From Ariolimax columbianus (taxonomy: Eukaryota; Mollusca; Gastropoda; Stylommatophora; Arionidae): a stretch of 64,000 nt of DNA. The notes under the pieces were generated by a model. The model saw only the letters and a program-made list of their open reading frames with translations. It searched no databases and was not told the origin of the DNA. A program made the position numbers and the translations under genes. The stretch is taken from NCBI GenBank assembly GCA_036924085.1, contig JAVGWX010000013.1, forward strand, positions 53,054,404-53,118,403, read 5' to 3'. Each line of letters starts with the position of its first letter. Within the stretch, counting starts at the first letter, position 1. Below are positions 2,478-48,795 of this stretch, piece after piece.

Positions 2478-3850
2478 CATGCTGGACAAAATCAGTAATT
2501 ATACCACTGCCTAAATCAGGAAACCTAAATATGTGTCAGAACTATCAAACAATCAGTCTGATAAGTCATCCAAGTAAAGTTCTCTTGAGAATAATACTTA
2601 ACAGACTGAAATCACAGGCAGAGAATATCATTGCAGAAGAACAAGCTGGCTTTCGAGCGGGAAGGAGTACCATCGAGCAGATATTTAATCTTCGGCTAAT
2701 GAATGAGAAGTACTCAGAATATCAACAACAACTCTACCATGTCTTCATTGACTTTAGAAAAGCATCTGACAGAGTGTGGCATGCGGCGCTATGGTCAACA
2801 ATGACGCATTATAAGTTCAACAGTGATATTATGAGGGTAATTGCAAACCTTTATGAGCAGGCGACAAGCGCAGTCTCTGTAGAGGGAACGCTAGGCGATT
2901 GGTTCCGTACGACGGTGGGTGTGAGACAGGAATGTATACTCTCCCCAACACTCTTCAATATATTCTTGGAGAGAATAATGTAGACGACCTTAAAAGAACA
3001 TGTTGGCACGGTTAAAATAGGTGACAGGCTTATCACAAACTTCTGATTTGCTGATGATATTGATGTATTGGCAGGCACAGAAAGGGAACTCCAGGAGTTG
3101 ATTGGTAGCTTGGATAGAGCGGCCCTGAGTTTTGGTATGGAAATAGATGCAGATAAAAAAAGCTCATGACCAATAACATAGCAGGGTTTAAATCTGTAAT
3201 AGAGGCAAATGGGCAGGAACTTGAGGTGGTAAAACGTTTCAAATATCTGGGATCATTGATCAGTGAAGAGGGATCGAAGCCAGAGGTAATTGCAAGAATA
3301 GCACAAACAACAGCGGCGCTGACTCGGCTGAAACCTATATGGCAAGACAAGCGGCTCGCCCTCTGCATAAAAGTTAGACTAATGTGCTCTCTGGTGATCT
3401 CAATATTTATGTATGCCTGCAAGACCTGGACCATTACAGCAGATATCCAGGGCAGAATACATGCAATGGAAATGAGGTGCTATAGAAAACTCCTAAATGT
3501 TACATATAAAGATCGTGTCACGAACGTAGAAATACATCAGAGAGTTGAAGACGCAATTGGTCCTTTTGAAGATATTTTCACAGCTATCAAAAGACGAAAG
3601 ATGGCCTGGTGCAGGCACGTCGCGAGGTCCAACGGAATTGCCAACTTGATACTCTTTGGTTCCGTACCGGGACAGCGAGGACGTCCAAGGAAGAAAAGGC
3701 GGGACAACATCACTGAGTGGTCAGGCCTTCGTCCCGGTGAGATACGACAGGCGGCGACAGACAGACAGGGATGGCGTGGGATTTTGGGAGTGTCTGCATA
3801 TGAGCCCCAACGACCTGATGGGTTATGGGATGAACTGAACTGAACTGAAC
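2478..3850 (+). mobile_element. RTE-like LINE copy A (RT and C-terminal domain), frameshifted
   Basis: The frame at 2453-2983 carries LPKSGNLNMCQNYQTISLIS, EEQAGFRAGRSTIEQIFNLR and VFIDFRKASDRVW, then VGVRQECILSPTLFNIFLER. These are RT motifs, with the usual G of RQG changed to E. After a stop, the FADD region is damaged (about 3045-3060), and the frame at 3166-3843 gives the C-terminal FKYLGSLISEEGSKPEVIAR and RRKMAWCRHVARSNG region. The 3' end is a short (ACTGA)n run at about 3831-3850. It is 5'-truncated and lacks endonuclease. Confidence 0.85.
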
Positions 3851-10615: not shown

Positions 10616-10958
10616 CCTCTACACAAAAAACCATGCCTATTACCAGTTGAACAGAAGAGAGCAGGTCGTGGTGTTTAGACTTTGCACTGGCTACAATAAA
10701 CTGAGGTACCACCTATTAAACAAATTGAAGATAGGTGGCACTGACGAATGCTCGTGTGGTACCAGGAAAATGACTGCTGAACATTTGCTGCAAAACTGCC
10801 CGACATACGAAGATCAGAGAAAGCAGATGTGGCCATCACCAGTGGCAACACTAGACAAGCTCTATGGCAGTGTCGACAGCCTCAGGATGATCCGCTGCTT
10901 TTTTCGAAAAAATACAGGTTGATGTCTGACAGCGTACGAAGAAGAAGAAGAAGAAGAC
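10616..10958 (+). mobile_element. I-group LINE, 5'-truncated 3' end
   Basis: From about 10618 the frame reads YTKNHAYYQLNRREQVVVFR and then the Cys/His element CSCGTRKMTAEHLLQNCPTY, matching the copies at 38431-39454 and 46553-47162. Upstream residues do not match, so the 5' break is near 10616. The 3' end is gacagcgtacgaagaag with (GAA)n to 10958. Only the end of the ORF remains. Confidence 0.82.
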
Positions 10959-11149: not shown

Positions 11150-12918
11150 AGAAAATTCAAGAGAAAATATAATCCTTTTTTAAATACAGCTGGGAAGAAG
11201 ACAAGTAATTTAAACACTTCAAGTGTAGTCCGTTTTTTGAGACATTATTTAGGGCGCTCTTGTTAGTCCCCCAGCTTGTGCTCACCAGCTTCTTCATGAG
11301 AGAGAGTTTTCTGGTAGCCTTTTGCTCAATGGCAATTAAGTGTGGCTTGCATGTAAGTGTCTTGTCTAGTTTCGCCTCTAAGTTTGGGGTTATCCTCAAA
11401 TGCAAGCTTGCCTTCTTGTAATTGTAGTTTTTTCTGGTTTGATAGTGATTGATAGCCAGAAGCAGGCTGTTACTGTCTTTGAGGGAATGATCTGCACTTC
11501 CCAAAGATGTCCAGTTGTCATTTTTGTTTATTGCTTTCTGTATTCCGTGTTTTGCAGTAGACAGATATTCTTCTACACTCTATGCTGCAAAGTCATCAGC
11601 ATGGAGAGCTCTAGAGATATGCTTGGGAAGTGTCTCTGCAATATCGTTGATGAATATTATGAAGAGAGTGAGCGAGAGTACTACTGTTTGTAACACACCT
11701 TTCTGGAGATTGACATGATGGCTAAGTTTTCTCTTACTCTTTTACTCTTAGAAGTCCTTTATTCAGTTAAACATTCTCCCTTCAATTCAATTTTTTTAGC
11801 AGCTTAAGAAGTCCTTTTCATGCCAGCGTCTTTGTATTTCAACCCTCTTCTGTTTGTCAAAAAAGGCATGCTATTTCTTTGTTGTGCCTCTGGGTTCAGC
11901 TCCATGGTTTTCCATGTTTCACTGATGTCACTGTGCAATTTTTTTTCAAATTATCACTCCAGCAAGGTGTATAGTCATACTCTGCCACGTGGGATTAATG
12001 CCTTTGCAGCTTGAATGATGGCATCACTAATACCATTTTTATTTATGTTGTTTGTTCTGGTGATGTTTTAACAAAGGTAATCTACCATTTCTTTAAAAAG
12101 GGTCCAGTTTCCTTTTTTGAAGTTCCCACATCGCCATTCCAGTAATTGTGAGGGTGATTGGCACATGGTTACTGACTTCCAGTTGGCTGTTCTTGGTGGA
12201 GAGGTGGTGTATATCATTAGTTGCCATGGTGAGATCTGGTGTGCTCACATTTTTCCATGCTTTGGAGTAATAGGTTGGCTTGTCATCTGGTTTGTTCATG
12301 AAAATGAGTTTGTTTTCCCTCATCACCTTCCATCTTCTCTCCTTTCTGATCTGATCTGTTGTCTTATATTTCCAGCTTGATGAATGGCCATTAAAGTCAC
12401 CTGCAATGATGTGTCTTTATCCCTCAAGTTTCACCTTTTTTATGACTAGAGTTGTACCTGCAAGTTTGTGATTGTTATGTTGCTCTCAGGCAGGACTAGC
12501 TTGATTGTGTGAGGCATTCTAGCTCATCCTCCCTAGATCTGTCTCTATGGCTGGAATTAAGGTTTTTACTAGTGTCATAATTCACTTCTTATTGATCTGT
12601 CTTGGTGGAAGGATATGTATCCACGAATAAAAAATCTTTAGGAATCTTTTATGTGTATTTCTTGGATGCCGGTTATGTTGTACTTTCTGAGGAATCCTTG
12701 CATCTCCAGCTTTTTGTTCCTCACACCTTATGCATTCCATTGAGCCACTGTAAGGCAGTGGGTTGGTTGGCCAGTTGCAGTACTCTGCCTTTCTCCAACC
12801 ATTAGGTTGGCAGAGACACCAGTTGCTTGGTTGGGTTCTTTCGCTGCTGAGAACTCGGCTCCATTCCTCCACGGTTGTAGCTGCTAGGGATGTTGCAGTA
12901 ATGTTATTGTTGCATGAC
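11150..12918 (-). mobile_element. Decayed antisense LINE with endonuclease and RT remnants
   Basis: On the minus strand the right end gives an endonuclease start (about 12860-12560: AQWNA-like, then FLRKYNI). Next comes NKPDDKPTYYSKAWKNVSTPDLTMATN DI-type sequence at 12290-12190, the substrate-recognition part of the endonuclease. At 11440-11260, LDKTLTCKPHL and KKLVSTSWGTNKSAL are post-RT motifs. The RT core is mostly lost between 11500 and 12090. The zinc-finger LINE at 12933 has inserted at its 5' side. It belongs to the I/Jockey-like group by these motifs. Confidence 0.65.
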
Positions 12919-13235
12919 TATGCCTGTCGGTGGTGGGTCAAGATGGCGCCGGACATGGTCGCAGTCGATTTCCCTCTTGATAAAACGGTGTTTTGTTTGT
13001 GTTTTCTATGATAACTCTTGAACTATTAATGTGATTCCTGGATATAAATGTGCCGACTTGTGAATTAAGCATACTAATGTGAAAGAAGTGATGCAGCCAA
13101 GTATATAACAGTGTATTTTTAGTCGTGAAAGGTAGACTAATGTGTACAGTTTCGATGGGACAAAGCGTGGCCGAAACTTGACCCGGTCAAAGGCTAGTGT
13201 CGCTCTGTGCTGTATCGTGACCCAGATAACGAAGC

Positions 13236-24240: not shown

Positions 24241-27113
24241 GATAGCTCAGGAAGAAGCTGGGTACATGAGACTCGTAGGCCTGGCAAGGCAACTCCTCTA
24301 GGAGAAAGAAAGCTCTGATGGCAAACCACAAATAAGAGTCATCACAAAAACTACGGAGACCGTGTTCTGTTGTTGATACCTCCAGTAGATGGCGTGAAGA
24401 AAAGGTGGATGCAGAAGGAGAGGCAGGAGGAGAGACAAAAAGACAGAGAGAAAAAGAAGGACTGCGAAAAGCAAAAGCAAAAGGAAATCAGACTGTTTAA
24501 AAAAATGTGAGTATCGGTTATTGGAATTGGCGCAGCCACTATTTATCATGAAGTAATTATCCAGAAATTGGTCTATGATTTCAACATCCTCATGATCCTG
24601 GAGACTTACTTGAATAAGAATGTCACTGTCAAATTTTCAGACAGGATACGTGCTACAATAATCCATGTGGTATCAGAAGTCGGGGCCTGGCTATGTACCT
24701 GCAGTGAAAACTCCACTACACATGTAGATACAAGTGCAAGTAAAATCAAGGATGTCGAGCTACAGGATATTGCAATGATAATAAATAACCAATATTGGAG
24801 AATTTTTAACCTGGATGCACATGTGAACAAGCTATTTGATGAATTGTCAGACATGACTGGCAAAAAATGTCTCATTGAGGGTTATTATAATGCTAAATTG
24901 AAGGAGGGGGAAATCCAACTGAAATTAGGCAAGGGATTACTTTGAGCCAGACACTTCTTTGATCTTCTTCTTTTGTACTACTGCTCTTGCCATGAGGTGT
25001 TACAGAGAGGTGGTATGTGTCAATTTCTTGCTATCGCCAGGTGGAGTCAACTAGTAGAAGAGGCATGGAAGGAAAAGGTGGTGGCAACAAAATAGTGCTG
25101 GAAAGCTCAAAAGAGACAGATCAAGAATGTCAACGGAGTTAATGAAGTGAACGAGAAAAAAATATAGAACTACCAGTTATTTTAAAGCATTAGCAAGGGA
25201 ATATAAAAACGAGAGGTGATATGAATTTATAACAGAGCTAGGTAATGATAATAGCCACCAGAAGTTCTGACACATGCATCAAAAGATGAATGGAGAGAAT
25301 ACAACCCCAGTGCATCTCTACTATTCAGGACTCCACATGGAGGCTTCTGACAACAGATGAAGTGATCAATATGTTGCACAGACAAACAAATGGAGATAAG
25401 GATGTGCATCAGAAAATGAGGAAATATGTTCTAGATACTGCCATCAGGGAAGAGGTTTATGTAAACTTGAACACAGCCCACTATTGCCATTTCAAGCAGC
25501 TAGATGAGGCAAAGATTGAAAATGTGTAGGATTTCAATACCACCACAGAGAAAGGCATATGAAGACTGGCTCCATAACTATCAGTGTCCACTCCCTGCCT
25601 ACATGCTCCGTAGCAACTATAGAATAATAACTTTACAGAACATCTATGCCAAGTTACTTGAGATGATAGTCGTAATAAAAATAATTTCTCATCTAGAACA
25701 TGAACACATTCTATCCGATGCCCTCGGCAGTTACAGGCAATGTAGAAAATCTGGGATAATGCAGGAACATTTGCATATAATATGTATGAGGACTTTCAAC
25801 TCAGGCGGGAAACAATTGCAGTCGCTCTCGACCTGGAGGACGCATATAACTTTGGAACTTTGTTGCGCTGTTTGAAGCAGTGTGGAATCAACCCATGGCT
25901 GAATATCAGCTGCCCTGATGATGAGAACAGTTGTACTCTGCTCTGGATCTTGAACCAATGAGAATATGCCCAGGACTGCTGCTAGGTTCTCCACTCTTAC
26001 TGGGTCTATTGAACATCTACACTATAGAGGTGCCCAACATTCAGTCCAAAGCGTCAGGGCAAACGCTAACATTTGCAGATGACATCCTGATGTATAGGAC
26101 TGGCTCAGATAGACATTAGATGGTCAGAGACATCCAGGGGACCTTACAGGCAACATAACACTGGTGCTTAGATTCCAACGCCAAGATCAATTCTAACGGT
26201 TGCAAGATGTGGAGTTCCTTGGATAATTCAATAGTGAAAGCTGACTTCCCAGGTATCACCTTTGATGAATGTGCCATTGACAGGTGTGACATGTTGAAGT
26301 ACCTCTGAGTAACCTTTGATTGTAGCCTCTCATGTAGATACCATGTCAATCAGACCATACAAAGTTGCAGGTGATGCCTAGGGGTACTCAAGACTATGGT
26401 ATTGACACTTGGAACAACGACTGCTTTTTATCCTATATGATCAGTACATGTCAGTTGTTGATTATGGACTGCGCATCCTTACACTATCATACAGTGTGAA
26501 TGGTTAGAATGTATTCAGAATGAAGGGATGTGACTTGTTTTGGGATGAACTAGATATACCCTAATCTTGCTTGACCTTCTGCCTGTGACATCCAGATAGG
26601 GCATATATGCTTGTTACCACAGACAGACAACACCTACTGCACAATAACACTTCATAAACCAAGGAATCGATAATCAAGATAGGTGAGTCATGGATGGCAC
26701 AGACAGAGAGAATAATTGGTCATTGACCGCAGTTGAGACGATAGATAAGGGAGAATAATGGATCCACACTGATGATAGAATGACAGATTACCACAGAGTC
26801 ATCATAACCCTGGGTAGGGAATGCAGAGAGTGGTGCAACGTAAGGGCAGAGCTCGAGGTTAACCTGCTGATTAATGGTAACGCTCAAAATGGTGGTGTCA
26901 TCATATATGCTGATGGATTGGTATTACAAAGTCAGATATCTAGTTGAGGCTTCTCTGCTAGAGTGAGAGGTCAGGTTGTTGTTGAACAGTGGAGCATACA
27001 GAACAACAACCTCCAGTACAAGAAGGAAGATGAAGGCAATGACTGCAGCTCTGAGTTGGCTATCTGAGACTTCTTTAACGAAGGCTGTGATCATGTCAGA
27101 CTTCCAATCCTTT
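24241..27113 (+). mobile_element. Decayed LINE: endonuclease, RT and start of RNase H
   Basis: At 24568-24945 the frame gives YWRIFNLDAHVNKLFDELSD and KCLIEGYYNAKLKEG, an endonuclease strand with GDFNA degraded to GYYNA. RT traces follow: a HILSDALGSYRQCRK region (about 25700), VALDLEDAYN (25829-25858), GSPLLLGLLNIYT (25985-26025) and LTFADDILMY (26068-26097). At 26880-27110, GGVIIYADGLV and TKAVIMSDFQSF are the first and third RNase H strands. The domain order places it in the I/R1 group. It stops abruptly inside RNase H, where 28S rRNA-like sequence begins. Confidence 0.65.
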
Positions 27114-27484
27114 TACAGGAATCGCTAGTCGCAGACATTTGGTCCACGTGCTAGGCTGATAAGTCAATGGCGCGAGACTACCATGTGAGGGATTACGGCC
27201 GAACGCCTCTAAGCCGGAATCCCGCCCTAAATCTCAGCACCACTGCGAGGGGAGGCTACGATATGGTGGGGACCTGGTGCTTGCGTCTCAGCCCGACCCG
27301 GTCGAGCTGCAGAAAGAGGTCTCTGCCGTCCGCCGATCAAAGCGGGCGGGAAGCTGCTCAATATTCACCCCATACGGCGATGAAGTGTGAAACCACTAGT
27401 AGAAGACTTAGTTCTCGGTCGGGGTGTTGTAAGCAGTAGAGCAGCCACCTCACTGCGAACTGTTTAGACTCAACCCTTGATCAT
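27114..27484 (+). pseudogene. 28S rRNA 3'-end derived segment
   Basis: The sequence follows the last ~370 nt of animal 28S rRNA. Near 27134-27146, cagacatttggt; 27173-27186, gcgagactaccat; 27191-27216, gggattacggc then cgaacgcctctaag; 27218-27227, ggaatcccgcc. At the end, aaaccactagtagaagac (27390-27407), tcggtcggggt, gcagtagagcagc and tcactgcgaac close at cccttga (27474-27480). The middle (27245-27385), which is the variable D12-type region, does not align by eye. It is not a functional locus: it is isolated and joined on the left to a LINE RNase H remnant. Whether it is an rRNA-derived retroposon or a template-switch chimera is not settled. Confidence 0.85.
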
Positions 27485-27487
27485 GAG

Positions 27488-27945
27488 ATACATCCGCACA
27501 CCAGGCGAACAACATCTCAGTGCCATGGCCAGGCTTGTCCCCTGGTTAAAGGCACTCCTGCCTCGCTCTTTACCTCTGTCTGCTATCTGTCATCCCAATG
27601 GACGCAGAAGAGATGCAGTCCAGCGGACATTGCACCTCTGCCCTATTGTGCCAACCTCCCAGGTGGCGGGGAATGCTAGGTGTGCCATCACTGCAGATAG
27701 GCCGAGAAAATCAAGGGAGTGAAGAGATAACTCACTCACATGCATATGCTACGTTTCTGGCAGGACGTGACGATCCTGGGATACAGACACACTGGACTGC
27801 CTCTCCTCCGGGATAGTACAAACCAGTACAAAGTCCATATCATATATTATATCTCAAATATCATCACCACACCCTATAGACACGAGTGGTGAAGACTCGA
27901 TAGTCCTGTAAGACAACTTCCATAAGAGAGACAACTCTGATCACA
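27488..27945 (+). other. GC-richer unassigned stretch
   Basis: This part between the 28S-like segment and a short SINE-like element is richer in G+C than the surrounding intron. Short ORFs occur but no motif is convincing. It may include the 5' region of the LINE that follows or a remnant of the LINE that precedes. Confidence 0.4.
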
Positions 27946-28075
27946 AACAACTACTGCCTTGCAGATAGGCTGGGGACAGCCAAAGGCTAAGGAGAGCATC
28001 CCTACAGAAACGCCTGTTGAAATCGGGTGCACTGGGCCACAGCCTTAACAAGTAACACAGTGCAACGTATATCGC
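27946..28075 (+). mobile_element. Short SINE-like element carrying the shared core (family 3, copy 2)
   Basis: Head caactactgccttgcagat (27948-27967) matches the element at 4824. The core reads ctgttgaaatcgggtgcact (28014-28033), then gggcc, and cacagtgcaacg (28055-28066), the same core as SINE-1. It sits directly before the LINE reading frame that starts at 28079. Confidence 0.55.
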
Positions 28076-28078
28076 TGT

Positions 28079-29323
28079 ATGATGACTGTACAACCTAATA
28101 GAGAAAAGTGTGGCGCTCATCCTGTGGAGTCCCGCCAGGCAGCGAGAGTGCCGGGCCTCACGCCTCGAAGGGGCCCACCCAATGCTACTGGTGGTAACCC
28201 ACCCATGTGCTGTGGAGTCAATGTACAAGGTGATGGGACAAAAACTATTGACCAAAAACACAAAACCCTCAGAATACTACAGTGGAATGCGAAGGGAGTC
28301 ATTAACAAAAAGCTCTCCCTAACACATCACTTGAATGAAGGTAAGATTGACGTGGCATGTATCCAAGAAACCCACCTCAACAACAACCACAAATTCTCAA
28401 TCAGAGGATACCAGACCTTCCGTCTGGATAGAGAAGGTCACAAAGGAGAGGTTCTGATACTGACATGTAACTGCATACAGAGTAGCGCGGTAGCTGTCAA
28501 TCACACCGGACAAGCAGAAATTGTAGGAGTTGACATAATGGCACAAGAGACGAAGATCCGCATCTTCAACCTGTATGGCCCACCAAACAAAGACCTGTCG
28601 CTCTCGAGTATGGAAGTCAAAGACTCCAACTGCATAGTAGTTGGAGACTTCAACAGCCACTCGGAGAGATGGGGATACTTGGACACAGACAGCAGAGGTA
28701 ACGAAGTGGAAGATTGGGAGATAGACACAAATCTCTGTCTTATCAATAGGCCGGAGGATAGCCCTAGCTTCTATTCTAGAACATGGCATACCACCTCTAC
28801 TCCAGACTTGGCCTTTTCCACGGTGGATATTTACCACAAAATAGACCGCCAGGTGCTTAACCAATTGGCAGGTAGCGACCACAGGCCAATTAGGCTAGAA
28901 GTTGATATGGAAGTAGGCCCACAGGAAATAAAACCGCTCCCACATTGGAATTACAAACGATCCGACTGGGACAGATTTGCAATCCTGACAGATGGGCTGT
29001 GTGAAACCATCAACACACAGAATAACAATATGAAGCCCATGGTGGAAAGCCTAAGCAAAGCAATAATGCAAGCTGCCACTGAAACCATTCCAAGAGGGGC
29101 AAGGAAAAACTATAAGCCTTACTGGAATGATGAATTGCAGAAAGCGGAAGACGAAGTCTCAAATGCTAGGAACATGGCAGAGAGAGAACAAACCATGGAG
29201 GCAAATATCACCCTCAAAGCCACCACGGCGAAATACAAATACACTCTAAACCAAATAACAAGAGAAAGCTGGAAAAACAAAACAGAAAGCCTCAATCTAG
29301 ATAAAGATGGGAACAAACTATGA
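28079..29323 (+). pseudogene. I-group LINE endonuclease frame
   Basis: A 414-codon open frame. Endonuclease motifs are LRILQWNAKGV, IDVACIQETHL, NLYGPPNKD, CIVVGDFNSHSERWGY, TWHTTSTPDLAF and the final LAGSDHRPIRLEV. All catalytic positions (Asn, Glu, Asp-Asn, Asp-His) are visible. Residues 300-414 are a charged linker. The true start may be later than ATG 28079, since the first ~60 residues are low in conserved motifs. The frame ends at TGA 29321-29323, after which related sequence continues. Confidence 0.83.
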
Positions 29324-29953
29324 AAGTTAGTCAGAGCCATGAATGACGAAACTCCATCAAACAAACAAATTACCATCAAGCAGGGCGACAACATGCTCAC
29401 TGGAAAAAAAGCAGCAAACGCCTTTATTGAACATTATGCTAGAGCAAACCACATCGATGTCCCTGCAGATAGGCATACAGACTTTAAGTGAAGAACAAAA
29501 GGGGCATGACAACATCAATATGGCACCAGAGGAGCACATGATGGCAAAAATAACAATGAACGAAATGGAAGAGGCCATGAGAACTCTAAAGAAAAAGAAA
29601 TCACCTGGAAAAGATGGGGTAACAAACGAAATGCTGATGGGGCTGGGCCAAACAGCAAAGAGTAAGTTACTATCAGTCCTGAACCAAAGCTGGAAAAGGG
29701 GTATTGTACCCCAGGCATGGAAAGACGCAGTACTTGTACCAGTACCAAAGAAAGGAAAAGATAAAACAGATCCAAATGGATACAGACCTATCAGAGCTGT
29801 GTAGGCAAACTGATGGAACATATGATAAACACCAGACATGTACCACCTGGAAGAAAAACAAATACTAATTCCACAGTTAGCAGGCTTTAGACAGCACAGA
29901 TCCACTGAGGATCAGATCACCCTCATAGCCCAGGAAATAGAGGATGCCTACAG
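28079..29953 (+). mobile_element. I-group LINE, 5' portion: endonuclease, linker, RT start
   Basis: The endonuclease frame 28079-29323 is followed by a TGA (29321-29323). The frame 29343-29804 has LKKKKSPGKDGVTNEMLMGL and PVPKKGKDKTDPNGYRP, the start of RT. The copy breaks off near 29953, in a place (EIENAYQE) where the copies at 31681 and 37337 continue. It has no 3' tail, so it was truncated after insertion or interrupted by later events. It supplies the domains that the 3' copies in this window lack. Confidence 0.83.
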
Positions 29954-29959
29954 AGGATG

Positions 29960-30135
29960 ATCTACAGCCATGCATTGAAGAAAATGCTTTTGGCTTGGCT
30001 TCATTTGTTCAATCTCCTGCTACCAAGCCCTGAAAATGGTTATGCAAGTAGCAGAATGTAGTTCAGAAAACGGAATGCGTTGCACCTTTCAGTCCAACAC
30101 ATCTGACTTCAGCAGGCATTTTTGAGTTGCGGGTT
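29960..30135 (-). mobile_element. SINE-like element, antisense, with shared core
   Basis: On the minus strand from about 30118: cctgctgaagtcagatgtgt, ggactgaaaggtgcaacgca, then ttccgttttctgaactacat and gcttggtagcaggagattga. This matches the element at 36359-36530, which has a (GAA)n tail and target duplication; here an internal stretch is missing and no tail is seen. Confidence 0.6.
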
Positions 30136-30139
30136 GCTT

Positions 30140-30565
30140 TCCCTCTTCGATGCCTTCTACTTACCTAGTCTATTTTGTTTCAGCCTGTTATCCAAGATCA
30201 CTGCGAGGAGTTGTAGAAGGGTCTTGGCAGCTCTGGTTCCCTGGCCCTGACGAAACCTCACACCTGCAGGGGCTGGTGTGGATCTACTGTCCTTGTCATG
30301 CTGGGGTTCTGTGCAACAAAAGAGCTGACATACTGGCTTCACAAGTACCAATTATGAGTTCACTAGATATGGACAGGAGTGAGATTTTGGCGTCTTTTAA
30401 TGACCATCTGTTGGATGATGACCCGGTAATAGATGAATCAGCAATTCACCAAGTGCAGAACTCAACTGGACAAGGTTTGAGTGGACTGGGCCGCAACAGA
30501 GGACAAGCAGAAGTATGTGCGAGCGATGAGAAACCATCTGTATCCACACTTTTCACCATTTACTG
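30140..30565 (+). mobile_element. LINE RNase H fragment
   Basis: Frame 30150-30566 contains LVWIYCPCHAGVLCNKRADI and LASQVPIMSSLDMDRSEIL. This is the last strand of a LINE-type RNase H, with the final His (CHAG) and Asp (RAD). The Cys in CPCHAG is Gly in most members. No RT is attached. The surrounding sequence is not assigned. Confidence 0.6.
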
Positions 30566-30889
30566 AGAGAGATTGAACACCTCTGGGTATGTCTGGAGTG
30601 CAGTGAACTCGATTCTTAGAATGAGAAAAGAACAGTACTAGTACAGTACATTTTGGGAACCAAACATCTGCTAGTTCCCTCTGGTTCTTTATGGGGATAA
30701 ATATCTTTTAGGTTGATAATTGTAAAGAATTTTCATATTGTAAGTTTATCTTAGTTAAGTGTGGCAAAACTAAATACTTTTGAATGCCAAATGAAATGTT
30801 TATTATATAACTTAAGGTTAATGTGTTGATATCATAAGCTCTTTCTGTCTTGTCAGATGTTAGTAATTGGGCGTTGAATAAAAAAAGAT
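30566..30889 (+). other. Intron stretch, nothing recognised
   Basis: AT-rich with no motif. A short A run at 30879-30888 may be the tail side of the antisense LINE that starts at about 30890. Confidence 0.4.
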
Positions 30890-31680: not shown

Positions 31681-33895
31681 CATCCATACCAAAGAAAGAA
31701 AAAGATACAACAGATCCAAATGGATACAGGCCTATCAGTCTACTGAGCTGTGTAGGAAAACTGATGGAGCATATGATAAACACCAGACTGATGTGGCATC
31801 TGGAAGAAAAACGCATACTAATTCCACAGCAAGCAGGCTTTAGACAGCACAGATCCACTGAGGACCAGATCACTCTCATAGCCCAGGAAATAGAGAATGC
31901 TTACCAGGAGAAAAACACACTGTAGCGGTCTGGGTGGATTTAGAGAAGGCATTTGACAAGGTGTGGAAAGAGGGACTTAAAGTCAAGCTACGAAGAAGTT
32001 GAAGTTTGTGGGAAAATGTACAGATGGATCAGCCACTACCTCAAAAACAGAACAGCCAGAGTTCAAGTACAAGGGCAGATGAGCAAAAAGGTGACACTTG
32101 AGCAGGGAGTACCCCAAGGGGGAGTACTGTCACCCACACTTTTCCTGGTGTATATAAACAACATCACAGAGAATATACCAAGAAGAGTCCACAGCTCCAT
32201 GTTTGCAGATGATCTGGCTATGTGGATCTCTGAAAAAATTCTCACCATAGCAAGCAGTCTGATGCAGCAGGCCCTAACATCGTTGGAGGAGTGGGCGAAC
32301 TCATGGCTGGTTAAAATAAATGAGGAAAAAACTACATGTACGATATTCTCGCTTTCAAACAAACCCCAGAACACCAAAATAAGTCTTAACGGCAAATATC
32401 TGCGGCCAAACGACAACCCAAACTACCTGGGAGTCACATTTGATCGGCGCATGACATGGAAAAGTCAGATCGAGAGAAACCGAATGAGAGCCAGAGAAAG
32501 AATGGCAATCATGAGAAAACTTGCTGGCACAAGCTGGGGAGCAGACGAAAGTATACTAAAGAAACTGTACACTGGAAGAGTGAGACTAGTTCTCGAGTAT
32601 GGCATTGTGGCATGAACAACAGCAGCAAAAGCGAACTTTGATAAAATTAGCAAACTTAAAAACCAAGCCATGAGAGTTATAACAGGAGGCATAAAGTCAA
32701 CGCCAATTGAAAAGATTACAAATCTGCAATCTATGACTGACAGAAGAGACTGCAGAGCCCAGCAGCAAGCAGAGAAACTCAGAAGACTGACAGACCATCC
32801 AATGCATCAGAGACTAAATAGATTTGGAAATGGGAAACTAAAGCGGAGAAACTTTGCAGAAATAGCCAAAGTAAAGATGAGCGAAGACCCTATGAACACA
32901 TTAACAACACCAAAGCCCATCCCTACTGTACGCAAACCTACCTGGAAGCAGCATATATTTCTGGAGGTGGTAGAAAATATACCAGGTATTGGAAACAAGA
33001 ACAGCCAGACTGAAAAAGAAAGAAGAGACATAACCCTGAGGTACATAACGAAAAACTAGCCAAGCATGGACTGGACCCATGCATACACCGACGGTTCTGT
33101 AACAAACACAACACAGAATGGAGGGGCAAGGTTATTCCTGAGCCTACCAAATGGTAGAAAAATAACACTGTCAGTGGCAACTGGAAAATACTCAAGCAAT
33201 TTCAGAGCGGAGGTAGAGGCACTGAGGGCTGCAGTAGAAGCAATGTTGACAGGCAAAAGAAATGAAAGCCAGATAGTCCTGCTTACAGATGCCCTGGCCG
33301 TAGTCACAGCACTAAAAAGCCAGAACAATACTGAACTTAATAATTTAAGAGCAGTACTCTGTCATCTATGCCAGCAGTCCGCACCAAAAAGAGTAGTGGT
33401 ACAGTGGGTTCCATCCCACTGTAACATCCAAGGCAACGAGGAGGCAGACAGACTGGCAAAAGTAGGTGCAAGACTACCACAACCAGATTCTAGTGGGAAC
33501 TACGAAGAGTCCAAAAGGCTTATTAGAGCTAGATACATTGCCAAATGGGAAACAGAACATACTGGCTACACAAAAAATGATACCTATTACCAATGGAACA
33601 GAAGAGAGCTGGTCGTGGTCTTCAGACTCTGCACAGGACACAATAGACTGAGTTACCACCTATTCAATAAACTGAAGATAGGTGGCACTGTGGTACAGGG
33701 AAAATGACCGCTGAACATCTGCTGCAAAACTGCCTGACATACGAGGACCAGAGAAAGCACATGTGGCCGTCACCAGTGGCAATGCCAGACAAGCTCTATG
33801 GCAGTGTCGACAGCCTCAGGATGACCGCTACTTTTTTTGAAAAAATACAGGTTGACGTCTGACAGCGTACGAAGAAGAAGAAGAAGAAGAAGAAG
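31681..33895 (+). mobile_element. I-group LINE copy 1 (RT, RNase H, Cys/His), 5'-truncated
   Basis: Starts near 31681 inside RT (PKKEKDTTDPNGYRPISLLS). RT motif A region WVDLEKAFDKVWK is at about 31934-31972, motif B is GVPQGGVLSPTLFLVY (32105-32154) and motif C is FADDLAMW (32202-32225). Post-RT FDRRMTWKSQIER follows. RNase H begins at 33066: YTDGS, EVEALRAAVEA, LTDALAVVTAL, HCNIQGNEEADRLAK. The frame breaks near 33690, so the Cys/His motif is damaged. Breaks include frameshifts near 31924 and 32000, TGA at 32613-32615 and TAG at 33057-33059. Tail gcgtacg(aag)n to 33895. It split the antisense zinc-finger LINE. Its target duplication is not exact. Confidence 0.9.
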
Positions 33896-36358: not shown

Positions 36359-36530
36359 CCCTGCTGAAGACGGATGTGTCGGACCGAAAGGTGCAAATAT
36401 CGCAGTTAAGCTGTAAACTAGTGACGCAACGCATTCCGTTCTCTGGACTACATTCTGCTACTTGCAAAACCCTATTCGGGGCTTGGAAGCAGGAGATTGA
36501 GAACGAACGCAGAAGAAGAAGAAGAAGAAG
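36359..36530 (+). mobile_element. Short element with shared core and (GAA)n tail, target duplication
   Basis: A 172-bp insertion in LINE copy B. It opens cctgctgaagacggatgtgt and ggaccgaaaggtgcaa, then tgacgcaacgcattccg, and ends gagattgagaacgaacgcag with (AAG)n. The flanks ggcagcag / gcagcag at 36351-36358 and 36530-36537 are a 7-8 bp duplication. Removing it restores the LINE reading from RTKSVVLL to LPKSGN. No A/B boxes were seen, so it may be a 5'-truncated SINE or the end of a larger element. Confidence 0.75.
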
Positions 36531-37336: not shown

Positions 37337-39454
37337 CCAGACTGATGTGGCATCTGGAAGAAAAACACATTCTAATTCCACAGCAAGCAGGCTTTAGACA
37401 GCACAGATCCACTGAGGATCAGATCACCCTCATAGCCCAGGAAATAGAGAATGCTTACCAGGAGAAAAAACACAGAGTAGCGGTTTGGGTGGATTTAGAA
37501 AAGGCATTTGACAAGGTCTGGAAAGAGGGACTTAAAGTCAAGCTACGAAGAAGTGAAGTTTGTGGGAAAATGTACAGATGGATCAGCCACTACCTCAAAA
37601 ACAGAACAGCCAGAGTTCAAGTACAAGGGCAGATGAGCAAAAAGGTGACACTTGAGCAGGGAGTACCCCAAGGGGGAGTACTGTCACCCACACTCTTCCT
37701 GGTGTATATAACAGAGAATATACCAAGAAGAGTCCACAGCTCCATGTTTGCAGACGATCAGACTATGTGGACTTCTGAAAAGAATCTCACCATAGCAAGT
37801 AATTCGATGCAGCAGGCCCTAACATCGCTGGAGGAGTTGGCAAACTCATGGCTGGTCAAAATAAACGAGGAACAAACAACATGTACGATATTCTCGCTTT
37901 CAAACAAACCCCAAAACACCAAAATAAGTCTTAACGGCAAATATCTGCGGCCTAACGACACCCCAAACTACCTGGGAGTCACATTTGATCGGCGCATGAC
38001 ATGGAAAAGTCAGATCGAGAGAAACCGAATGAGAGCCAGAGAAAGAATGGCAATCATGAGGAAACTTGCTGGCACAAGCTGGGGAGCAGACGAAAGAATA
38101 CTAAAGAAACTGTACACTGGAAGAGTGAGACCAGTTCTCGAGTATGGCATTGCGGCATGGACAACAGCAGCAAAGGCGAACTTTGATAAAATTAGCAAAC
38201 TTCAAAACCAAGCCATGAGAGTTATAACAGGAGGCATGAAGTCAACGCCAATTGTAGAACTTGAAAACATTACAAATCTGCAATCCATGACCGACAGAAG
38301 AGACTGCAGAGCCCAGCAGCAAGCAGAGAAACTCAGAAGACTGACAGACCATCCAATGCATCAGAGACTAAATAATTTTGGAAATGGGAAACTAAAGCGG
38401 TGAAACTTTGCAGAAATAGCCAAAGCAAAGATGAACGAAGACCCTATGAACGCATTAACAACACCAAAGCCCATCCCTACTGTACGCAAATCTACCTGGA
38501 GGCAGCATATATTTTCAGAGGTGGTAGAAAATATACCAGGTATTGGAAACAAGAACAGCCAGATTGAAAAAGAAAGAAGAGACATAACCCTGAGGTACAT
38601 AACGAAAAACTACCCAAGCATGGACTGGACCCATGCATACACCGATGATTCTGTAAAAAACACAACACAGAACGGAGGGGCAAGGGTATTCCTGGGCCTA
38701 CCAAATGGTAGAAAAATAACACTGTCAGTGGCAACTGGAAAATACTCAAGCAATTTCAGAGAGGAGGCAGAGGCACTGAGGGCTGCAGTAGAAGAAATGG
38801 TGACATGCAAAAGAAATGAAAGCCATATAGTCCTGCTCACAGATGCACTGGCCGTAGTCACAGCACTAAAAAGCCAGAAAAATACTGAACTTAATGATTT
38901 AAAAGCAGTACTCTGTCAACTATGTCAGCAGTCCACACCAAAAAGAGTAGTGGTACAGTGGGTTCCATCCCACTGTAACATCCAAGGCAACGAGGAAGCA
39001 GACAGACTGGCAAAAGAAGGTGCAAGACTACCACAACCAGATCTTAGTGTGACATACGAAGAGTCAAAAAGGCTTATTAGAGCTAGATACATGACCAAAT
39101 GGGAAACAGAACATACTAGCTACACAAAAAACGATGCCTATTACCAGTTGAACAGAAGCGAGCAGGTCGTGGTCTTCAGACTTCGCACAGGCCACAATAG
39201 ACTGAGGTACCACCTATTAAATAAATTGAAGATAGGTGGCACTGACGAATGCACGTGCGGTACCGGGAAAATGACCGCTGAACATTTGCTGCAAAACTGC
39301 CCGACATACGAGGATCCGAGAAAGCAGATGTGGCCATCACCAGTGGCAACACTAGACAAGCTCTATGGCAGTGTCGACAGCCTCAGGATGGCCGCTGCTT
39401 TTTTCGAAAAATACAGGTTGACGTCTGACAGCGTACGAAGAAGAAGAAGAAGAA
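37337..39454 (+). mobile_element. I-group LINE copy 2, best preserved, 11-bp target duplication
   Basis: Flanks gttctgtgttt at 37326-37336 and 39455-39465 are identical, so the copy is 2118 bp including the tail. It starts within RT and ends gcgtacg(aag)n. It has a single in-frame stop (TGA 38401-38403) between the RT and RNase H portions. It is inserted in an antisense LINE within ENT intron 5 in the same orientation as the gene. Confidence 0.93.
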
Positions 39455-39468
39455 GTTCTGTGTTTTAA
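37343..39468 (+). pseudogene. RT / RNase H / Cys-His polyprotein remnant of I-group copy 2
   Basis: From LMWHLEEKHILIPQQAGFRQ the frame has RT motif A WVDLEKAFDKVWK, motif B GVPQGGVLSPTLFLVY and motif C MFADDQTMW. Then comes the RT thumb FDRRMTWKSQIERNRMRARE to a TGA at 38401-38403; the sister copy has AGA there. The same frame continues through RNase H: YTDDS (usual YTDGS), EEAEALRAAVEE, LTDALAVVTAL, HCNIQGNEEADRLAK. It closes with CTCGTGKMTAEHLLQNC. It reads through the tail to TAA 39466-39468. The N-terminal endonuclease is absent through truncation. Confidence 0.92.
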
Positions 39469-45926: not shown

Positions 45927-45952
<26 letters not shown>

Positions 45953-46517
45953 CTTCTTCGTACGCAGTCAGACAGTAACCATTATTTTTTCGAAAAAAGC
46001 GGCGGTCATTCTGAGGCTCTCGCCACTGCCATAGAGCTTGTCTTGCAGTTCCACTGGTAATGGCCACATCTGCTCTCTCTGATCCTCGTATGTCGGGCAG
46101 TTCTGCAGCAGATGTTCAGCGGTCATTTTACCAGTACCGCACGGGCATTCGTCGGTACACCCTATCTTCAATTTGTTGAATAGGTGGTACCTCAGTCTGT
46201 TGTGGCCAGTGCGAAGTCTGAAGACAACGACCTGCTCTCTTCGGTTCAACTGGTAATAGGCATCGTTTTTGGTGTAACCAGTATGTTCTGTTTCCCATTT
46301 GGTCATGTATCTGGCTTTGATAAGCCGTTTTGACTCTTCGTACGTCATATTGGTATCTGTTTGTGGTAGTCTTGCACCTTCTTTTGCCAGTCTGTCTGCC
46401 TCCTCGTTGCCTTGGATGTTGCAGTGTGACGGAACCCACTGTACTACTACCCTTTTTGGTGCGGACTGCTGGCACAGTTTACAGAGTGCTGCTCTTAAGT
46501 CATTGAGCTCAGTGTTT
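45927..46517 (-). mobile_element. I-group LINE 3' end, antisense, 13-bp target duplication
   Basis: Flanks tagatagcacttc at 45914-45926 and 46518-46530 are identical. The tail is (CTT)n at 45927-45958 followed by cgtacgc. The minus-strand frame carries QWVPSHC, NEEADRLAKEGARLPQ, YEESKRLIKARYMTKW and CPCGTGKMTAEHLLQNC. It is 591 bp and 5'-truncated in RNase H. Its 5' end faces the + copy at 46553. Confidence 0.93.
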
Positions 46518-46552
46518 TAGATAGCACTTCATTATCTTTCATATAGTCCTGC

Positions 46553-47162
46553 TTACAGATGCCTTGGCCGTAGTCACAGCACTAAAAAGCCAGAAAATAC
46601 TGAACTTAATGATTTAAGAGCAGTACTCTGTCAACTATGCCAGCAGTCCGCACCAAAAAGGGTAGTGGTACAGTGGGTTCCATCCCACTGCAACATCCAA
46701 GGCAACGAGGAGGCAGACAGACTGGCAAAAGAAGGTGCAAGACTACCACAACCAGATACTAGTATGACATACGAAGAGTCAAAACGGCTTATTAGAGCTA
46801 GATACATGACCAAATGGGAAACAGAACATACTGGCTACACAAAAAACGATGCCTATTACCAGTTGAACAGAAGCGAGCAGGTCGTGGTCTTCAGACTTCG
46901 CACTGGCCACAATAGACTGAGGTACCACCTATTCAACAAATTGAAGATAGGTGGCACTGACGAATGCCCGTGTGGTACCGGGAAAATGACCGCTGAGCAT
47001 TTGCTGCAAAACTGCCCGACATACGAGGACCAGAGAGAGCAGATGTGGCCATCACCAGTGGCAACACTAGACAAGCTCTATGGCAGTGTCGACAGCCTCA
47101 GGATGACCGCCGCTTTTTTAGAAAAAATAAAGGTTGTCTGACTGCGTACGATGAAGAAGAAG
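46553..47162 (+). mobile_element. I-group LINE 3' end, sense, 12-bp target duplication
   Basis: Flanks atatagtcctgc at 46541-46552 and 47163-47174 are identical. The LINE begins inside RNase H (LLTDALAVVTALKS) and runs to gcgtacgatgaagaagaag. One base is missing near 46600 relative to the sister copies, so the frame resumes at 46665 (QWVPSHCNIQGNEEADRLAK). It stands head-to-head with the antisense copy at 45927-46517, giving a long inverted repeat. Confidence 0.93.
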
Positions 47163-47276
47163 ATATAGTCCTGCAGCAGATATACAGTATACATTTCAAA
47201 CAAGTAATGTGGAAGTGATTTAGCCTCTTTGCATCTCCAGCATAGACAGTCTAGCAATCATATGCGTAGAGCAGGG

Positions 47277-47541: not shown

Positions 47542-47920
47542 ATATGCGTAGAGCAGGGTGGGAGAATGGGGGCACTATAGACCGTCAACTTAGTCGTTAT
47601 GCTGATTCCTCGACATTCCAACACTGTTAAGCACGTTAGATCAAAAGCTGTGCTGGCACTAATGTCGACAGCAGGCTTTTGAAGTAGACACATTTTTAAA
47701 CTGCTTGTAATTTCTATCCCCTCATTGTAACCACTGACTGTTTATATGATGTCATGTGTTGCTACTTTGTTGCTTTGTTGCTACTTTGTTTACCTATTCA
47801 TGTCATGCCTGGTGCTGGTTGGTACATGACCTCAGTTTTGTTTGTGCTAATGGTCAAACCAAAGTTGTCACAAGAGAAAAGGTCCATGCCCTCCTGCATT
47901 CACAGCTGCAATATCATGTG

Positions 47921-48795
47921 CTCATGCTCATCATTGTGTAGGCATGCTCATCAGTGTGTGCTCATGCTCATCATTGTGTGCTCATGCTCATCATTGTGTG
48001 CTCATGCTCATCATTGTGTGCTCATGCTCATCATTGTGTAGGCATGCTCATCATTGTGTAGGCATGCTCATCAGTGTGTGCTCATGCTCATCATTGTGTA
48101 GGCATGCTCATCAGTGTGTGCTCATGCTCATCATTGTGTGCTCATGCTCATCATTGTGTGCTCATGCTTATCATTGTGTGCTCATGCTCATCATTGTGTG
48201 CTCATGCTCATCATTGTGTGCTCATGCTCATCATTGTGTAGGCATGCTCATCATTGTGTAGACATGCTCATCATTGTGTGCTCATGCTCATCATTGTGTA
48301 GGCATGCTCATCAGTGTGTGCTCATGCTCATCAGTGTGTGCTCATGCTCATCATTGTGTGCTCATGCTCATCATTGTGTGCTCATGCTCATCATTGTGTG
48401 CTCATGCTCATCATTGTGTGCTCATGCTCATCATTGTGTAGGCATGCTCATCAGTGTGTGCTCATGCTCAACAGTGTGTGCTCATGCTCATCATTGTGTG
48501 CTCATGCTCATCATTGTGTAGACATGCTCATCATTGTGTGCTCATGCTCATCATTGTGTAGGCATGCTCATCATTGTGTGCTCATGCTCATCATTGTGTA
48601 GGCATGCTCATCATTGTGTGCTCATGCTCATAATTGTGTAGGCATGCTCATCATTGTGTGCTCATGCTCATCATTGTGTGCTCATGCTCATCAGTGTGTG
48701 CTCATGCTCATCATTGTGTGCTCATGCTCATCATTGTGTAGACATGCTCATCATTGTGTAGACATGCTCATCAGTGTGTGCTCATGCTCATCATT
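47921..48795. repeat. Tandem array of 20-bp units, about 43.7 copies
   Basis: Consensus ctcatgctcatcattgtgtg. The period is exactly 20 with no indel across 43 full units. Two linked variants occur: a unit ending gtgtg is followed by ctcatg, and one ending gtgta by ggcatg or gacatg. A tcattg/tcagtg change also recurs. The array ends about 90 bp before the ENT exon 8 acceptor. The long ORFs through it (CAHAHHCVLMLIIVCSCSSL) are a consequence of repetition and not a gene. Confidence 0.97.

Follow-up and report, generated by a model that had tools for sequence, protein, structure and literature searches.

The window, 64,000 nucleotides of an Ariolimax columbianus contig, holds a stretch of 28S rRNA inside an interrupted LINE (Table 1). 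When cmscan was given positions 27060-27520 it returned RF02543 (LSU_rRNA_eukarya) with 99.1 bits and an E value of 1.6e-24, reaching the last model position, 3401; given 26900-27700 it returned the same family with 86.7 bits. A scan of the whole window with the Rfam fast filters gave 0 matches, so the 28S match is visible only with a short stretch as input. Two blocks of human 28S aligned to the window with 89/111 and 69/91 identities. Their local scores were 110 and 72; the highest scores reached in 300 base shuffles were 29 and 27, and those elsewhere on the plus strand 30 and 22. Both results confirm the initial annotation, in which this piece was taken for the 3' end of 28S rRNA. It had also placed the start of the piece, at 27114, where a LINE frame breaks within RNase H, and this agrees with a homology that begins at 27117. 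The homology extends to about 27494 and is followed by about 31 nt that recur directly behind the 28S of an rDNA-like locus, L043.

Table 1. Features of the interrupted LINE and of the DNA inserted into it (window coordinates)
Feature	Coordinates	Strand	Basis
LINE A, old, broken, insertion target, up to mid-RNase H	24500..27116	+	frame reading, RNase H half
28S rRNA 3' end, 3' part of pre-rRNA head	27117..27494	+	RF02543, genome matches
Putative rDNA 3'ETS, about 31 nt behind the 28S terminus	27495..27525	+	similarity to locus L043 only
LINE B 5'UTR	27526..28078	+	Elysia relative; short forms: 5'UTR then (GAA)n tail
LINE B ORF2, 5' part (endonuclease, reverse transcriptase start)	28079..29956	+	PF14529, PF03372
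Stretch between LINE B break and LINE A return, about 240 bases	29957..30196		
LINE A continued, RNase H second half	30197..30566	+	joined RNase H match

When joined, the two RNase H halves of LINE A match PF00075 as one domain (27.2 bits, cut-off 25.8 bits; E 4.8e-6; profile positions 4-138 of 141). The left part alone (to SDFQSFYR) gave no Pfam match up to E 1, and the right part alone (from about 30180) reached 13.8 bits. Since the halves match as one domain, LINE A has been interrupted by inserted DNA that extends from 27117 to about 30196. The rest of RNase H, which the initial annotation had suggested looking for after 27484, lies instead at about 30197. The earlier idea that the 28S piece is joined to an RNase H LINE holds as far as adjacency goes; functionally the two do not belong together, LINE A being the target and the 28S piece heading a different element, LINE B. 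No target-site duplication (TSD) was found around the window insert. A protein search for relatives of LINE A gave 453 candidates, none of them at E 1e-3. In a self-comparison of the window, positions 30009-30083 match 36426-36500 in reverse.

The window copy of LINE B, with its endonuclease matches to PF14529 and PF03372, is without its 3' half: it breaks at about 29951-29956, and its alignment to the other window copies stops at 29951. A second LINE B copy in the window matches RVT_1 and RNase_H. From 27956 on, 87 residues are 39% identical (E 2e-10) to part of an N-terminal extension seen in an Elysia protein, and among the endonuclease relatives listed (120 of 193) the named organisms are all gastropods, the best 54-56% identical. 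By its predicted domains LINE B qualifies as a jockey-like gastropod LINE with an APE-type endonuclease and a reverse transcriptase, the clade name being drawn from the names of the relatives and not from a tree. A search for ORF1 with one frame from behind the 28S piece gave 6 candidates, none at E 1, and a scan for ribozymes around the start of LINE B (27480-28300) gave 3 Rfam matches up to E 10, all of them below the gathering threshold and none a ribozyme. At the start of ORF2 (28100-28200) the motif RQA..VPG..PRRGPP.ATGG is common to many gastropod relatives. More 5'-truncated LINE B copies lie in the window at 31687-33890, 37337-39455, 10619-10957, 45935-46276 (reverse) and 46540-47163, several of which end in GAA repeats; no second 28S match was found with them on the plus strand of the window. 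An array at 47917-48795 is probably a 20-bp tandem repeat, since its self-matches are all shifted by multiples of 20.

LINE B and its short form across the genome

We searched the animal's own genome (2.29 Gb, 401 contigs); candidate numbers are rough first-look counts, and the best 40 candidates were scored. With the 28S query (27100-27500), 40/40 scored candidates matched, the best 40 of 2,978, spread over many contigs and 93-95% identical, the window itself aside. The 5'UTR query likewise gave 40/40 (best 40 of 4,184, each from nt 1), as did the endonuclease query (best 40 of 2,579), whereas a 138-nt query from the 28S core yielded 21 candidates in all. The recurrence of the same head across the genome bears out the earlier view that the piece is something other than an ordinary fragment of rDNA, and the dispersed copies establish the rRNA-headed retroposon family that had been proposed as one option.

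The layout was read in 20 copies from the scored 28S-query matches, and the 28S piece is present in 20/20. The 5'UTR runs into ORF2 in four of them (L012, L013, L025, L026), while in the short forms, 13/20 copies, it gives way to about 14 nt resembling the 3' end of LINE B itself and then to (GAA)n; two copies are rearranged (L027, L028) and one is cut (L021). These 13 short forms fit the description of an rRNA-derived SINE, which had been suggested for the case that copies have the same 5' edge; the LINE form of the window copy does not, and as full LINE copies also bear the head, the family exceeds such a SINE. The 5' ends vary among copies. The 28S extends upstream of 27117 in 19/20, L030 diverging after about 7 nt, so the edge at 27114, a candidate family edge in the initial annotation, gives way to a truncation point, 27117, of the window copy's own. 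The sarcin-ricin loop is altered, relative to the wild type, in 20/20 copies. The 27117 edge lies, as we take it, within this loop; an alpha-sarcin-type cleavage product is ruled out by the other copies, which run through it.

Rfam searches of seven copies found 18S upstream of the 28S part in 5/7 and 28S in 6/7. In L028 the 18S match spans the whole Rfam model, and in our reading this copy would hold 18S from nt 1 to about 1180 and then switch to 28S; its join region has repeated blocks common to copies. As a check on selection bias, copies were also chosen by other parts of the element. Those chosen by the 5'UTR have 28S directly upstream in 19/20, and L049, from this set, starts at the 3'ETS without 28S; among those chosen by the endonuclease, 28S is present in 5/8, neither 28S nor 5'UTR lies within the stretch taken in 3/8, and a 5'UTR without 28S occurs in 0/8. 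The 28S-5'UTR unit is wholly or partly in tandem in L019 (2000-3169), L031 (2001-3153), L016 (2001-3567) and L069, and such tandem copies look like the outcome of jumps between two element RNAs.

In viral contigs, a LINE B search gave 1 pattern match and no relative; 28S patterns gave 3 stretches, one of them (L001) with a eukaryotic LSU 3' end, and a second 28S pattern gave 0 matches. L001, an IMG/VR contig listed as viral, has a eukaryotic 28S 3' end at 12735-13115 with no 28S found upstream, and is perhaps rDNA with an intron.

A TSD was called where a direct repeat was 11 bp or longer and had no more than one mismatch. Seventeen copies were entered, L013, L021 and L028 being left out, and one had no recognised tail; repeats at both ends were found in 12/16, and for those 12 copies random stretches of the same locus reached an equal score in 0-5% of 200 trials. 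L015 and L031 show repeats of 11 and 12 bp once their longer 5' end is used, counted without such a null, which brings the total to 14/16; no TSD was found for L022 and L026. Two of these 14, L012 and L025, are full LINE copies, and their TSDs lie outside both the rRNA and the LINE. Since the repeats bracket the whole, the head was inserted together with the LINE or with the short tail, and in L012 and L025 two RNAs are combined in a single insertion, as in a chimeric retrocopy. TSDs, 5' truncation and a constant 3' end, which mark target-primed reverse transcription, are found together in the dispersed family, the window copy apart. TSD sequences differ among dispersed copies, and nothing like the fixed rDNA target site of R2 is seen. 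Nor does each chimera have its own join, as independent events would give: the 28S-3'ETS join and the altered sarcin-ricin loop are common to the sampled copies.

L015 and L031 begin directly behind the TSD with the fixed start ATCTGGGGCTGG, which is also present in L043. It recurs at internal joins behind 28S in seven loci (L014, L015, L020, L023, L024, L026, L028) and at an internal join behind ITS2 in L037. The longest heads open with ATCTGGGGCTGG and comprise a 5'ETS-like leader, 18S beginning at its nt 1, the 3' part of 28S up to the terminus and some 31 nt of 3'ETS; behind these stand either the LINE 5'UTR and ORF2 or a (GAA)n tail. We infer that the fixed start is the 5' end of pre-rRNA. 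Pol I transcription of the LINE B family from the rDNA start is a candidate, and LINE B transcripts, if made from that start, would begin at ATCTGGGG.

An rDNA-like locus and the possible renewal of heads

L043 has a wild-type sarcin-ricin loop, and neither a (GAA)n run nor a repeat of its upstream flank was found there. Its surroundings are raised in GC, with LINE B fragments 0.6 kb upstream and 1.6 kb downstream. The roughly 31 nt behind its 28S end resemble those of the family (28/29 nt in many copies, 27/29 in the window), and past them the similarity is no better than in shuffles. With the likeness ending there, the family reads as 28S, then about 31 nt of 3'ETS, then LINE B, an assignment that depends on a single locus lying among LINE B fragments, which may not be typical. 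The assembly search yielded no real rDNA array, and the names 5'ETS and 3'ETS accordingly follow position and this one locus. Family parts were found at each of the six top-scoring loci of a 5.8S query (40 of 53,434 candidates scored) and in all four of the 21 28S-core matches that were examined. At L043 2700-2780, behind the 28S end, GGTTCGAATCC looks like a tRNA T arm.

Some heads have 5.8S and ITS added. Their 5.8S is identical over 157/157 nt in L033, L034, L036 and L037 and matches L032 at 156/157, and two pairs agree fully in ITS1 (179/179), where pairs that include L036 reach 132/140 or 131/140. In the same four loci, the 28S is 78-88% identical to L024 and the 5'UTR 83-88% to the window; pairs among L033, L034 and L036 that gave separate pieces show 72-80% for 28S and 81-86% for the 5'UTR. 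A 13-bp TSD surrounds the 5.8S-28S-5'UTR-tail unit of L034, L033 has its TSD further upstream, and none was found for L032. L034 and L035 (C4, 86 kb apart) are 99% identical, with 48-bp-spaced repeats upstream; they are a segmental duplication that holds a 5.8S-bearing head.

Outside CpG-like sites, L015, L031 and L037 compared pairwise have 0/118 changes in 18S in every one of the three pairs, and in the leader they have 19/276, 20/250 and 35/320 (p 0.0014, 0.0007 and 0.00001, the pairs not being independent). Slow 18S change and identical 5.8S fit repeated capture from working rDNA. The 18S identity of L037 is 97% over 540 nt and falls to 94% over 1147 nt. Slow change could also reflect constraint or conversion within the element instead of fresh capture, since L037 has the 18S/28S layout of L028. 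Over 28S and 5'UTR, 21 copies have a median K2P of 0.057, and their tree has 4/18 inner branches well supported. The window copy groups with L013 and L026, both of them long (97/98); support is weaker (89/94) for the cluster of the 13 short forms with L021, L027 and L028.

Possible routes to a pre-rRNA leader

Joint insertion, a common join, truncation and a fixed start are demonstrated at the level of sequence. Very probably, a jockey-like LINE B family and its short non-autonomous derivative retrotranspose with a pre-rRNA 5' leader as one unit. The window copy would be a headed LINE B RNA, truncated at 27117, that landed in LINE A, and the LINE B enzyme would copy the short form via the common 3' end. 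The joint RNA could have arisen by read-through from the rDNA start into a LINE B about 31 nt behind a 28S gene, or by a jump in which the reverse transcriptase left the 5' end of the LINE for a pre-rRNA extended at its 3' end. The head would then be inherited from few masters and occasionally renewed when the enzyme jumps to live pre-rRNA; copying within the nucleolus or close to it would be in keeping with such renewal. A template switch and a LINE once seated in rDNA had both been offered in the initial annotation, and both survive as possible routes to the origin of the head.

These two routes appear about equally likely. If an rDNA-resident LINE B about 31 nt behind 28S provided read-through RNA as template, a proposal that we put just short of even, one would expect the single fixed start that is identical in L015, L031 and L043, and a 28S terminus plus 31 nt join that is identical in the copies compared. 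The sequence upstream of the start in L043 has no match among the other loci compared, as expected if copies come from RNA, and the slowness with which 18S changes indicates that the source lay in working rDNA. However, the searches turned up no rDNA unit in which LINE B follows 28S, in an assembly that seems to be without rDNA arrays, and the sarcin-ricin loop altered in every sampled copy means that the source of those heads was not a working 28S gene. A jump of the reverse transcriptase onto pre-rRNA carrying about 31 nt of 3'ETS, with the chimera becoming a master whose head later jumps rebuild, carries nearly half of our expectation. It accounts for a fixed RNA start joined to internal points of another rRNA, at the seven 28S loci and behind the ITS2 of L037, and for heads of differing make-up upstream of one 28S-LINE join; jumps of this kind are described for human LINE-1 (PMC13174262) and a fungal LINE (PMC2104539). 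Against it, such a chimera needs a promoter that starts at the head, and none is known, while one join in many copies demands a single founding event followed by inheritance. An rDNA-resident LINE B master may exist while the dispersed copies are not specific to rDNA.

It is unlikely that an rRNA-derived SINE, the short form, existed before LINE B and later gave LINE B its 5' end. Most sampled copies are short (13/20), and their likeness to LINE B at the 3' end is limited to about 14 nt, which would suit this order of events, but the body from 27956 is a LINE 5' region related to another gastropod element, which makes deletion of ORF2 from a LINE the simpler account, and full LINE copies have TSDs of their own. 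A one-off 28S/LINE chimera, stray rDNA or an assembly error is extremely improbable: while the human 28S/LINE-1 chimeras are reported as single insertions (PMC13174262), here the same head with common sequence changes lies at many places. A one-off template switch onto 28S is ruled out by the 40/40 scored genome matches. An assembly error, which the initial annotation had named as a possible undoing of the join, is unlikely, since the join of 28S to LINE B recurs at many places; the outer join of the insert to LINE A was seen once only.

More tentatively, and with somewhat less than even odds, we can envisage a LINE lineage whose RNA is made within pre-rRNA from the rDNA start site and copied next to pre-rRNA in the nucleolus, whose enzyme goes on renewing the leader from live pre-rRNA, and whose headed LINEs have spread genome-wide along with their short derivative. 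The fusion of rRNA and LINE, a rare accident, is here a heritable and abundant 5' leader. Such heads preserve a natural record of the site at which a LINE enzyme works and of the RNAs it has jumped onto, and through them one can test whether rRNA transcription can serve as the RNA source of a LINE. Matches to 18S, 5.8S and 28S in a mollusc assembly may be transposon heads, which bears on rDNA counts and rRNA phylogenies.

Comparison with known systems

No pre-rRNA-headed LINE family was found in the literature searched, whose coverage takes in few of the subscription journals. The rRNA-derived SINEs, including the 28S-derived SINE of mammals, have an rRNA head and a LINE-like tail and are dispersed, and the short form of LINE B is like them in all three respects. 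It is unlike them in that its head is pre-rRNA with 18S and spacers and that the partner LINE has the same head. R2 occupies a fixed site inside 28S, and its 5' end is freed by a ribozyme. Co-transcription with rRNA would be common to LINE B and to R2 and other rDNA-resident LINEs only if the template was read-through RNA from rDNA, and, unlike the fixed-site R2, LINE B copies are dispersed, have differing TSDs and keep the rRNA.

Other close precedents are chimeras of a LINE with another RNA. Human 28S/LINE-1 chimeras are reported at 18 loci, 83% of them in sense, with a median of 269 nt of 28S that often starts from around position 3,636, and are explained by RNA ligation or template switching (PMC13174262). 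As in LINE B, a sense piece of 28S stands at the 5' side of the LINE and is inserted together with it; the human cases are 18 separate loci, whereas in LINE B a single join, its head including 18S, ETS and the terminus of 28S, has been inherited throughout a large family. Low-level template jumping is recorded for the R2 enzyme (PMC10499050), and single and double template jumps for the chimeric retrogenes of Magnaporthe (PMC2104539). There too, a high-copy RNA is fused before a LINE or SINE and direct repeats surround the whole, tripartite cases having arisen by two jumps. The 5' partner described for Magnaporthe is WEIRD RNA, joined to the LINE at varying points, whereas in LINE B it is pre-rRNA, with one join and with full-length ORF2 copies.
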